This document shows, piece by piece, positions 2,751 to 13,896 of a stretch of 40,368 nt of DNA. The stretch comes from a virus. The notes under the pieces are model-generated. The model had not been told where the DNA came from. It saw only the letters and a list, made by a program, of their open reading frames with translations, and did not search any database. A program made the translations under genes and the position numbers. The stretch spans positions 1 through 40,368 of IMG/VR virus record IMGVR_UViG_3300036861_000380; one strand, written 5' to 3'. Position 1 is the stretch's first letter. Every line of letters begins with the position of its first letter.

Positions 2751-3076
2751 TGATTATATCCGACAAAGAAGTTGAGCGAGCCATCCGCTACCTTGAGCAG
2801 ACAGATCTTGAGGTAGCGGATTGGAAGGTCGCTGTCATGCGAGCAGAGCATATGGTTGATGTAACGGAATCCACTGTTTATCAAGTTTCTTCTGGATCAA
2901 TCGAAGATCGGAAGCGGCTTGCTAAAGCGAGTCCTGAAGTGATGGTCAAACAGGAAGAGCTGTTTCGGGCCGTCCGTGAGCACGAGATCATTCGCGCCAA
3001 ACGCAAACGCGCAGAGTTGATGGTTGAGTTATGGAGAACGCTGTCGGCCAATCGCCGTGTTGGTAACGTGACATGA
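2750..3076 (+). CDS. Helical protein of the SSB-tail/Ref cluster
   Basis: A 108-residue, highly charged, largely helical protein starts by TGATG overlap with the upstream SSB-tailed gene and ends in ATGA overlap with the Ref nuclease gene. It probably forms a coiled coil (for example EELFRAVREHEIIRAKRKRA near residues 68-88). There is no catalytic motif. The tight coupling on both sides suggests a partner of the recombination proteins, but that is inferred from context only. Confidence 0.7.
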   Translation: MIISDKEVERAIRYLEQTDLEVADWKVAVMRAEHMVDVTESTVYQVSSGSIEDRKRLAKASPEVMVKQEELFRAVREHEIIRAKRKRAELMVELWRTLSANRRVGNVT

Positions 3077-3426
3077 ACAAAGCCGAGAAAGAACGCATTG
3101 ACCGCATGATGAAACTCGGATGCGCGGCCTGCGCCAGCATCGGGATCGTTCACATTGCCCAGGAGTGTCATCACATCCTGAGCGGCAATATTCGCATGGG
3201 CCATTGGTACACGCTTCCGTTGTGCCGCGGACATCACCAGGGCGACTGGAACGCAGAACAGCGCGAAATCCTCACACCAAAGCAGCTCGTGGCGATCTCA
3301 GACGGGCGCAAAGCCTTTACCCGCGTCTACCCCACTGAGCGGGAGTTGTGGGCGGCGGTGCAGTTCGTGATGCGGCTGGACGATACCTGGTCGCCGACCA
3401 AACTCGTTCCCAGGAGCGTCGCATGA
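3073..3426 (+). CDS. Ref-type RecA-dependent HNH nuclease
   Basis: This 117-residue protein matches what I know of the recombination enhancement nuclease of phage P1 (Ref; Pfam RecA_dep_nuc). Visible features are a CAAC pair at 17-20, the ECHHIL motif at 31-36, GHWYTLPLC at 43-51 and CRGHHQGDW at 51-59, giving a zinc-supported HNH core. Ref cuts DNA within RecA filaments and so aids homologous recombination at displaced strands. P1 Ref has a longer basic N-terminus; this protein has only about 10 residues before the core. It sits beside two SSB-tailed proteins, which fits a recombination module using host RecA. Confidence 0.85.
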   Translation: MNKAEKERIDRMMKLGCAACASIGIVHIAQECHHILSGNIRMGHWYTLPLCRGHHQGDWNAEQREILTPKQLVAISDGRKAFTRVYPTERELWAAVQFVMRLDDTWSPTKLVPRSVA

Positions 3427-3698
3427 GTACCCGTGTGCCCCGCCGCGAAGAAGGCGATTTGAAGCCGTGGGAGAAATTCGAGATCCGCAAATTCCGCGAG
3501 TCTGGCGCCACGATCCGCGAGCTCGCCGGCATGAACCGCATTTCGATGGCCACTGTCTACCGCGCTTTGGCTGAAATGCGCGAGAAATTCGGCCCAGAAA
3601 CGCTGCCGCGCAACCGCAGGCAACTTGCCCGCCCCATGCTCCGATCCAACTTGCGAGGTCAAGAGACGCAAGTTGATATTGGGGAAAAACAGGGGTAA
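3423..3698 (+). CDS. Helix-turn-helix DNA-binding protein
   Basis: This 91-residue protein starts at ATG 3423 (ATGA overlap with the Ref gene). Residues 21-52 contain a resolvase/Hin-type helix-turn-helix: FRESGATIRELAGMNRIS followed by MATVYRALAEM. There is no ligand or dimerisation domain, and a basic tail follows. It is probably a transcription regulator or DNA-recognition protein. The gene ends this coupled block, and a regulatory gap follows it, so it may act on that region. Confidence 0.7.
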   Translation: MSTRVPRREEGDLKPWEKFEIRKFRESGATIRELAGMNRISMATVYRALAEMREKFGPETLPRNRRQLARPMLRSNLRGQETQVDIGEKQG

Positions 3699-3701
3699 AT
3701 T
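3673..3701 (+). promoter_or_regulatory. Candidate sigma70 promoter before the DUF3653-like gene
   Basis: TTGATA (3673-3678) is separated by 17 bases from TAAATT (3696-3701), a 5/6 plus 4/6 match to the consensus. It overlaps the end of the helix-turn-helix gene and would read into 3781. The match was made by eye and is not conclusive. Confidence 0.35.
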
Positions 3702-3712
3702 GCGATGTCGCA
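3701..3712. promoter_or_regulatory. Short inverted repeat, possible operator
   Basis: TGCGATGTCGCA is a perfect 5-bp inverted repeat (TGCGA/TCGCA) around TG, directly after the candidate -10 element. It sits between two genes encoding helix-turn-helix-type proteins, where an operator would be expected. Short palindromes also arise by chance. Confidence 0.3.
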
Positions 3713-3780
3713 TGTTTATAAGTCATTGAATGGACCATATATACACTATGTGCACCTCGCAAGGGTGCTAGCGTGTGGGG

Positions 3781-4161
3781 ATGGCCGACCCCTCAAGTCC
3801 GTTTTATGGCTTGTCCGCCAAGGACATAGCGCGCATCTGCAAGGTGGATCTTGCGACCGCACGCCGCTGGCGACGGGGGGCAACCTGCCCGCCCGAATCG
3901 GCCCTGATGCTCCTGTCCGGAGACCTCGGCTATCTGGACCCTGCCTGGCGCGGCTGGAAGGTCCGTGGGGGGCAATTGGTCTCCCCCGAGAACTGGATAG
4001 CCACCCCCGGGGATGTGCTCTCGATCCAGCTCACGCAGGCCCAGCTCTCCACCTATCGCAGCGAGAACCGGGCATTGAAAGCGGCGCTCGAGGCAGCCGA
4101 ACTCGACACCTTCGAGTCGCAACCCGAGCCGGGAGACTGGACGATCGCGCTCGAGGGCTAG
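3781..4161 (+). CDS. DUF3653-like phage regulator with helix-turn-helix
   Basis: Residues 10-45 form a helix-turn-helix (LSAKDIARICKVDLATARRW). They are followed by the pattern W-x-GW-x7-L-x-SPENW-x-TPGDVLS (about 57-82) that I associate with DUF3653 proteins of Xanthomonas-type phages. The C-terminus (85-110) is a short coiled coil. ATG 3781 gives 126 residues; GTG 3775 lies just upstream. It is the first gene after a gap of 80 bases holding promoter-like and palindromic sequence, so it probably regulates this operon. The family assignment is from memory of the motif. Confidence 0.65.
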   Translation: MADPSSPFYGLSAKDIARICKVDLATARRWRRGATCPPESALMLLSGDLGYLDPAWRGWKVRGGQLVSPENWIATPGDVLSIQLTQAQLSTYRSENRALKAALEAAELDTFESQPEPGDWTIALEG

Positions 4162-12222: not shown

Positions 12223-12744
12223 CTATTTGGTTGCAGCAATTTTGTTCAAAGCATCAGACTTGCTGGCGGATCCGGCACTTGATCCGTAGTAGTAGGCGAC
12301 AATTCCTGTCCACGCGGTTCCGAGCGAGCCCAGCAGCACCAGTAGCGCCTCTCCCCCGCCGTCCTTCGGAACGCCTCCGTGGAGCATCCAGCCCAGGACA
12401 GAGAAGAAGCCCAGCGTGATCCCGAAGGCCAGGATCATGGGCGTCCAATCCTTCAGCGCCATTTCCCGAGCTCGAGCGCTCGCCCGATCGTCGGCGGCAA
12501 TCTTCTCCTCTTCCACGCCCAAGTCTGCCAAATGCTGCCGGAAATCAGTCTCGACCTTCTTGAGCGCGAGGAGCGTTTGCGGGTCACCGGAGAGAATGGC
12601 CGCCTCGGCCGCTTTGGGGTCACCTGCGCCGAGTTCCTTGGCAATGAAGCTCCCAGCCGCGGCTCCCAACGGACCGCCCAGAGCGCCTCCCAGAAGTGGA
12701 GCTACGGTGCTGATGATGCGCCTGGCTGAATCCGAAAATGACAT
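12223..12744 (-). CDS. 3TM-type phage holin candidate
   Basis: This 173-residue protein matches the layout I know for the GTA/3TM holin family. It has a Gly/Ala-rich amphipathic N-terminus (13-35), a charged helical stretch with KKVETDF and DDRASARARE, then membrane spans at about 102-121 and 133-151, and the ending YYYGSSAGSASK. It would form the inner-membrane lesion that releases the endolysin. Its ATG overlaps the TAA of the displaced endolysin end (TAATG), showing the two genes were once directly coupled. Confidence 0.75.
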   Translation of the reverse strand: MSFSDSARRIISTVAPLLGGALGGPLGAAAGSFIAKELGAGDPKAAEAAILSGDPQTLLALKKVETDFRQHLADLGVEEEKIAADDRASARAREMALKDWTPMILAFGITLGFFSVLGWMLHGGVPKDGGGEALLVLLGSLGTAWTGIVAYYYGSSAGSASKSDALNKIAATK

Positions 12745-12800
12745 TATTGGAACGCCTCTATAGCTGTTTGAATCACTCGATTCGTCCAGCCTTTGCCGAA
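12744..12800 (-). pseudogene. Displaced original 3' end of the endolysin gene
   Basis: These 57 bases encode FGKGWTNRVIQTAIEAFQ plus a TAA that overlaps the holin start. It is the natural C-terminus for a GH108 endolysin, now cut off from the rest of the gene by the homing endonuclease insert. A second, recoded copy (FGKGWLARVISTAIEAFG plus TGA, 13429-13485) completes the present endolysin. By hand count, 14 of 18 residues match but only about 61% of bases. Confidence 0.85.
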
Positions 12801-12806
12801 GGTTTT

Positions 12807-12815
12807 TGATACAAT
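12807..12815 (+). promoter_or_regulatory. Possible extended -10 promoter for the homing endonuclease
   Basis: TGATACAAT fits the extended -10 form TGnTATAAT. Transcription would begin about 7 bases later, near the ATG at 12822, giving an almost leaderless message. No good -35 is visible and none is required for this class. The call is tentative. Confidence 0.35.
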
Positions 12816-12821
12816 GTAACC

Positions 12822-13460
12822 ATGAACCACCCGAATTGCAGGGATCTCGCCGGGCAGAAATTTGGCCTTTGGACGGTTATTCACCGCGCTGGCTCTGAAG
12901 CAGGAAGTGGCAGTGCCACATGGAGTTGTATTTGTGCCTGCGGGGAAATTCGGATAGTTCGAGGGTCGAAACTGAGATTGGGCGAAACTACATCTTGTGG
13001 CTGCAATCAGCCAAAACTTGCCCGCATCAATGGAACTACGCACGGAATGACTAACTCTTCTACTTACAGAGCTTGGCACGGAATGATCGATCGTTGCGAA
13101 AATACAAAAAACGAAAGTTATGAATGTTATGGCGGGCGCGGTATTGGCGTATGCATACGCTGGCGGAATTCCTTTGAAAACTTCTTGAAAGATATGGGGC
13201 CCCGTCCAGCTAAGCATTCCATTGATCGCATTGATAATAACGAAGACTACAAGCCTGATAATTGTCGATGGGCTACGCTGACACAACAGGCGAGAAATAA
13301 ACGGATCACCATCCGTCTCTTCTTCAACGGAGAGACTCGCAGCCTTCCTGAATGGTGCGAAGTAACAGGATTCTCCTATGCGTGTCTTCATGGGAGATAC
13401 CAAAATGGATGGTCCATTGATCGGATGCTCACCCAAAAGCCTCAATTGCGGTCGAAATAA
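12822..13460 (+). CDS. HNH homing endonuclease inserted in the endolysin 3' end
   Basis: This 212-residue protein runs opposite to its neighbours. An N-terminal domain opens with DLAGQKFGLWTVI and has Cys pairs (CICACG, SCGC; about 35-60) like a zinc-binding module. An HNH core follows: YGGRGIGVCIRW, NFLKDMGPRP, KHSIDRIDNNEDYKPDNCRW (about 104-150). The C-terminal GETRSLPEWCEVTGFSYACL is a NUMOD-like helix-turn-helix. It should cut a specific site and copy itself into endolysin genes that lack it. It is clearly more AT-rich than its surroundings. Its last 11 codons overlap the endolysin end on the other strand. It starts near-leaderless, with only a weak ribosome site. Confidence 0.9.
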   Translation: MNHPNCRDLAGQKFGLWTVIHRAGSEAGSGSATWSCICACGEIRIVRGSKLRLGETTSCGCNQPKLARINGTTHGMTNSSTYRAWHGMIDRCENTKNESYECYGGRGIGVCIRWRNSFENFLKDMGPRPAKHSIDRIDNNEDYKPDNCRWATLTQQARNKRITIRLFFNGETRSLPEWCEVTGFSYACLHGRYQNGWSIDRMLTQKPQLRSK

Positions 13461-13896
13461 CGCGCGCTAACCATCCTTTCCCGAAATATTCGAATGTCGG
13501 AAGTTTCGCGAGCATCAAAATACGCTCGGTCGAGAGCGCGGGGACGACCGCCGTAGGGACCCGTGCAAGGCGCAAGGTCTGTGATCCCATGGTTCCATCC
13601 ACCTGCGCACCGATCGCCCGCTGTAGCCCGCGGATAGCCCCTCCCACGCCTGAATTGACGGCATAGTCGAGCAGCGCGAAAGACACCTCATCGGGCAGCT
13701 CGTCGCCGTGGATCTTCTCCCAATAATCCGAGTGGTAAAGCTCGGCCGCCTGCGCCTGGGTGAGATTACGGATATCCAGTTGCGGATAAGCCCGTTGACT
13801 GATTCCATACTGAGTAAGGCCACCCGGGTCGGTTGGGTTATCAACGAGCCCGCCTTCCATCTTCAGCACGTGTGCGACTGCGCGGGCGAAGGTCAT
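13429..13896 (-). CDS. Endolysin, glycoside hydrolase family 108
   Basis: This 155-residue protein has the GH108 signature: VAHVLKMEGG with catalytic Glu 14, then DNPTDPGGLTQYGIS. A C-terminal peptidoglycan-binding domain carries FALLDYAVNSGVGGAIRGLQ (about 73-92). It should cleave glycan strands of the cell wall once the holin acts. No signal peptide is present. The last 18 residues are supplied by a recoded sequence next to the homing endonuclease, while the original end lies 630 bases further on. The start overlaps the stop of the upstream gene (ATGA). Confidence 0.9.
   Translation of the reverse strand: MTFARAVAHVLKMEGGLVDNPTDPGGLTQYGISQRAYPQLDIRNLTQAQAAELYHSDYWEKIHGDELPDEVSFALLDYAVNSGVGGAIRGLQRAIGAQVDGTMGSQTLRLARVPTAVVPALSTERILMLAKLPTFEYFGKGWLARVISTAIEAFG

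Follow-up and report, generated by a model that had tools for sequence, protein, structure and literature searches.

For homing genes that lack introns or inteins, lying between genes or splitting them was long regarded as the main way to persist in essential genes. Another arrangement has been described in fungi. The WHO elements of the yeasts Torulaspora and Lachancea consist of a replaced 3' end of the host gene, a nuclease gene and a fragment of the old end, with no splicing involved (Coughlan et al. 2020, PMC7282813). For WHO6 and FBA1 it has been demonstrated that the nuclease cuts a sensitive allele and that repair copies the donor's resistant end along with the nuclease gene; the recipient's old end persists as a fragment that can be used as homology (PMC7282813). 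The mORFs of fungal mitochondria, in atp6 of Allomyces and in atp6, atp9, cox2 and nad3 of Glomus, likewise combine an endonuclease ORF with a foreign C-terminus and leave the native one downstream; the two copies differ mostly silently (63.5% identity in atp6), and the described atp6 case carries a LAGLIDADG ORF (PMC3630166).

In phages, the free-standing HNH genes known as Mob genes in T4 and its relatives are presumed to home into phage genes through double-strand breaks or nicks; in the sections of that account covered here they lie between genes or split their host, as mobE does in nrdA of Aeh1 and mobA in gene 60, and a replaced end with a remnant is not described (PMC2988022). The covered sections of reviews and surveys of phage homing genes report insertions between genes or splitting them, not replaced ends (PMC2988022, PMC10448857, PMC12724721). 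In the methylase gene of mycobacteriophage ShiLan, an HNH insertion for which no intron or intein was found is read through in frame without a stop, with the HNH in another frame, and when the start of the insert is read in the host frame, its first 11 residues are similar to the 11 residues of the host that follow the insertion; the authors see this repeat as a possible sign of an intron (PMC11855218). We note that it may be another case of the gene-end type. Our literature search returned no phage report of gene-end replacement; most subscription journals were outside its coverage, and an earlier report is possible.

The window studied here, meaning the whole stretch of DNA analysed, is a virus record of 40,368 bases, not a mitochondrial genome. 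Its endolysin gene (13429..13896, minus strand) belongs to the GH108 family (Pfam PF05838, E = 7.2e-25; endolysin PHROG 315, E = 2.7e-45) and is intact and, as argued below, chimeric, with a native body and a substitute 3' end. This proximal end (13429..13485, minus strand; FGKGWLARVISTAIEAFG and a stop) overlaps by 32 bases the 3' end of an HNH homing endonuclease gene on the opposite strand (12822..13460, plus strand). On the far side of the HNH gene lies a second, distal version of the endolysin end (12744..12800, minus strand; FGKGWTNRVIQTAIEAFQ and a stop), whose TAA shares bases with the ATG of the next lysis-region gene (12223..12744, minus strand), in the sequence CAATAATGTCA. The block bounded by the two copies (12801..13485, not assigned to a strand), made up of the HNH gene and the substitute end, is 685 bases long and has a GC content of 48%, against 58% for the window. 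The initial annotation had reported this arrangement, and its coordinates and open reading frames were reproduced. It had also counted 14 of 18 residues and about 61% of bases as matching between the two ends, and our recount agreed, with 14/18 residues and 33/54 bases identical; the codons of the 14 common residues differ in nine cases and are the same in five, and the remaining four residues differ. The next-best ungapped match to the 18-mer in all six frames of the window has 7 of 18 residues, and the fragments flanking the HNH gene to the left and right match each other at E = 5e-6 in blastp. The next gene had been called a holin, a label that is plausible and for which family searches gave no support, since there was no Pfam match and the PHROG matches were 1544 and 9990 only, both without known function; we call it putatively holin-like.

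The HNH gene, of 212 amino acids, is an intact ORF with conserved motifs in alignment and a cysteine-rich N-terminal region. It matches PHROG 374 (E = 3.5e-63), along with six other PHROGs of HNH proteins or endonucleases, and Pfam gave no match at 1e-3. Its structure model is confident (pLDDT 90.6); among solved structures nothing significant was found by sequence or by fold, and therefore the HNH assignment rests on the PHROGs. The opposite strand of 12822-13460 holds a stop-free frame over all 213 codons. We rejected this frame as a second product, and regard it as a by-product of the HNH protein sequence, because all of 500 synonymous shuffles kept a run of at least 200 codons.

The native form of the locus can be seen in L001, an IMG/VR virus whose uninterrupted endolysin has 85% protein identity to that of the window and which has no HNH gene at the same site, as expected of a free-standing HNH homing endonuclease. 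L001 has a single endolysin, as the initial annotation had predicted for uninterrupted relatives, and it ends in FSKGWIQRVVQTAIEAFQ and a stop that overlaps the start codon of the next gene. Over the 18 codons compared in this one close endolysin relative, the L001 end is identical to the distal window copy at 43 of 54 bases (45/57 with the stop) and to the proximal copy at 33 of 54. The endolysin body, codons 1-135, shares 309 of 405 bases with L001, and similarity drops just ahead of the proximal end block. On this comparison the distal copy, which the L001 end matches better, is the native end, left stranded, and the proximal copy is of foreign origin. This agrees with the earlier proposal, made from the TAATG overlap, that the distal copy is the original. 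A relative of the window endolysin is the probable source of the foreign end, since both window ends finish in RVIxTAIEAF, a motif absent from the other GH108 proteins fetched. A degenerate-pattern search of viral contigs for the donor of the new end returned the L001 contig only; phage records yielded no nucleotide relatives of the window locus, and bacterial genomes no endolysin relative above 46%.

The window is not an isolated case. We gathered viral loci with related HNH genes, several hundred in all, and used blastp (cut-off E<1e-4) to compare the reading-frame fragments across each HNH gene, excluding HNH-like fragments and taking fragment pairs from different loci as the control. In the first set, flanking reading frames were duplicated at 8 of 250 HNH places, against 0.31 expected from the cross-locus pairs, and in a later, separate set at 2 of 72, against 0.13 expected; the two together give 10 of about 320 related phage HNH genes (about 3%), against 0.44 expected by chance. 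Of the ten duplicated cases, two may instead reflect small paralogues, namely L322 and perhaps also L244. In L244 (3057-4648) the HNH gene separates two divergent copies of a small gene with cysteines, which might be paralogues or the result of replacement of a whole gene. The tandem HNH genes of L191 and L225 were rejected as not being gene ends, and an earlier duplication scan, spoilt by overlapping segments (L088) and by low-complexity GC-rich frames, was replaced.

At least seven host genes, unrelated to one another, show the arrangement around a single nuclease family, and the duplicated stretch directly adjoins the HNH ORF. The host gene is ninB in L286 and L293 and a Ref-like nuclease gene in L489 and L491. 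In L239 the 3' end of an ASCH-like gene is duplicated, and the remnant, INGPGSWDANPWVWVVEF, is the usual end in 78 relatives, which the intact end fits less well. We assigned the names ninB, Ref-like and ASCH-like ourselves from the protein sequences and neighbouring annotated phages; they are not the outcome of family searches. In L136 it is the 5' end of a helicase gene that is duplicated, and the left remnant is taken as native because its ATG overlaps the stop of the upstream gene. In L296 (1885-2307) the HNH ORF continues in frame into the former C-terminus of a small host protein, and the gene for that protein has a different C-terminus upstream; this fusion was left out of the filtered duplication test. 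In L283 the two ends read DKES[YF]YRHIKLTSSGV, and their 17 codons, stop included, comprise 4 identical, 12 silently changed and 1 with a replacement; among relatives of this host gene no empty site was found, L428-L430 carrying the same element and L431-L433 being too distant. Other placements were also seen: in Pseudomonas phage D3 (L327, 4962-5594) the HNH gene orf78 and the start of ninB overlap and no duplicated end was found, and in Escherichia phage PGN829.1 (L340, 687-4109) an HNH gene splits the DNA polymerase I gene in two. L293 also contains a match to the Rfam family Betaproteobacteria-1 sRNA (RF02932, at 1211-1333), which suggests a betaproteobacterial host or prophage.

One case lies in a cultured phage. 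The head-morphogenesis gene of Acinetobacter phage AP22, like that of its relative Ab65, ends in CKCRK[CY]LIIDIPETI and a stop, and is followed by the HNH gene and then by a remnant, FRCRKKLIIEIPDKPYQNN in AP22 and NCRCRAKLIIEIPDSMT in Ab65, each with its stop. The head gene of LZ35 ends in NCRCRKKLIIEIPESMA and a stop, resembling these remnants; there is no HNH gene there, and 86 bases separate this end from the shared flank. The automatic duplication score of AP22 was E = 0.008 only, and the case was recognised by inspection. At the same site, the Obolenskviruses L341 (AB1), L342, L343 and L345 have no HNH gene; they carry different short ORFs, among them AB1gp26, about 80-145 amino acids long, and their head genes carry the other end type.

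Comparisons between element-bearing phages indicate what moves. Between L286 and L293, a stretch running from about codon 30 of ninB through the spacer and the HNH gene is mostly 75-98% identical, whereas the flanks are unrelated, at about 30-45% identity, and the remnants are below 60% (flanks and remnants together about 30-57%). Between L489 and L491, the end of the Ref-like gene and the HNH gene are 93-100% identical, against about 43% for the remnant and flank. Because the new end and the HNH gene are near-identical in both pairs while flanks and remnants are unrelated, the mobile unit is, as read from these alignments, the new end plus the HNH gene, and each recipient keeps its own old end.

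A reciprocal exchange is seen among three further genomes. In L428, L429 and L430 the HNH gene lies at 2868-3827, and L428 and L429 are essentially identical to L430 outside three blocks, namely the intact end, HNH residues 1-158 (the nuclease half) and the remnant. All 32 differences between the L428 and L430 HNH proteins fall in residues 1-158, and none in 159-320. The intact L428 end matches the L430 remnant at 50 of 51 bases, and the intact L430 end the L428 remnant at 48 of 51; inside either genome the two copies share 39-41 of 51 bases, with residues unchanged. A serine codon in these ends, TCN or AGT, tracks the HNH type. The L283 HNH protein resembles that of L428, with which it has a WKKIAFCD stretch and the TCN serine codon in common; its later codons are of the other type, so that its end type follows its HNH type in part only. 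Taken with L283, the swap covers three distinct genomes and is suggestive, not proof. With the end types called alpha and beta, one of the two genomes L428 and L430 has alpha as its intact end and beta as its remnant, and the other the opposite. We advance tentatively, with a chance a little below even, the broader proposal that HNH elements of this class are widespread in phages and that in them the specificity of the nuclease is linked to the host-gene end, as a pair of cutter and immune allele. On this proposal the swap would reflect two mutually excluding elements that displace each other, repeatedly rewriting the conserved ends of essential phage genes.

We consider it likely that the window insert is a gene-end-replacing homing element, whose unit couples an HNH gene to a host-gene 3' end that has diverged. 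In a co-infected cell, we infer, the HNH protein would cut or nick a sensitive allele of the endolysin gene close to its conserved FGKGW codons. The break would be repaired from the element-bearing phage, with homology provided by the endolysin body on one side and, on the other, by the next gene or the short fragment of the old end. The recipient would thereby acquire a complete chimeric endolysin, with its own body and the donor's end, together with the HNH gene, and its old end would be stranded as a remnant. As in WHO6/FBA1 (PMC7282813), the new end may escape cutting by the HNH protein, its sequence being different. The initial annotation had held that the element brought its own recoded end. 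The bringing of an end has support at the level of the class, from L286/L293, L489/L491 and L428/L430; the term "recoded" fits a diverged allele acquired from a donor better than a designed set of synonymous changes. Because most HNH genes of the family have no duplication, gene-end duplication is one outcome among several for these genes.

Passive mosaicism would give the locus a different history, in which illegitimate recombination between two phages joined a foreign endolysin end, with the HNH gene beside it, to this genome, the nuclease being a passenger at the boundary and the codon differences having no role. Nuclease genes are indeed known at boundaries of exchange between phages, according to the covered sections of one survey (PMC10448857), the new end would simply be a diverged allele, and the absence of a duplicated end from most family members fits as well. 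We nevertheless regard this history as unlikely, given the recurrence around one nuclease family in unrelated host genes with the duplicates bordering the HNH ORF, the two instances in which new end and HNH gene moved together, and the joint variation of ends and HNH nuclease half in L428/L430. A second suggestion bears on the role of the codon differences, not on the homing origin: the copies would differ to prevent repeat recombination from deleting the element, instead of or besides avoiding cutting. The silent differences between copies in each genome of the L283 family, and the AGY/TCN serine codon differences, are explained by this too; however, it accounts neither for the origin of the new end nor for the co-varying HNH nuclease half, and in the window four residues differ as well. 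We grant it a modest chance as a rival, and avoidance of direct-repeat recombination may also keep the copies different in a gene-end-replacing homing element.

HNH genes are often borne by introns and the distal copy keeps its coding sense, as it would if the insert were a group I intron or other spliced element and the distal copy the true second exon. The upstream copy, however, is complete with its own stop, and the 685-base spacing is not divisible by 3 and thus out of frame, so that linking the copies at matching positions would take RNA splicing, of which there is no sign. No catalytic RNA core of a group I intron was found in the insert, the window having no Rfam match at the gathering or a relaxed threshold (E<=1), and eleven similar loci gave no intron match. 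We find a spliced element hardly credible, in line with the initial annotation, which had proposed a route without splicing. An intein or other in-frame insertion was rejected on the spacing of the copies, the opposite strand of the HNH gene and the host gene's own stop.

The gene-end-replacing phage elements work like WHO elements and mORFs and belong to neither. WHO nucleases are LAGLIDADG proteins with a zinc finger, related to HO and VDE, always at FBA1, among nuclear yeast genes and in tandem clusters, whereas the nuclease here is an HNH protein (PHROG 374) in a phage endolysin, and its relatives occur in phages, in many host genes, in either orientation and, in L136, at a 5' end. The substitute end of a WHO element is resistant to its own nuclease; the counterpart in the window is a proximal end that differs from the distal one in sequence. 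The comparison of AP22 with its uninterrupted Obolenskvirus relatives, and the L428/L430 swap, make gene-end replacement directly testable. Through such replacement, an element can occupy an essential gene that keeps working. That it occurs in phages, and with HNH nucleases, points to more than one origin of the strategy, in yeast nuclei, fungal mitochondria and phages. Gene-end replacement can, moreover, abruptly introduce silent and non-silent changes where conserved phage genes end, and it accounts for the stray gene-end fragments that adjoin HNH genes.
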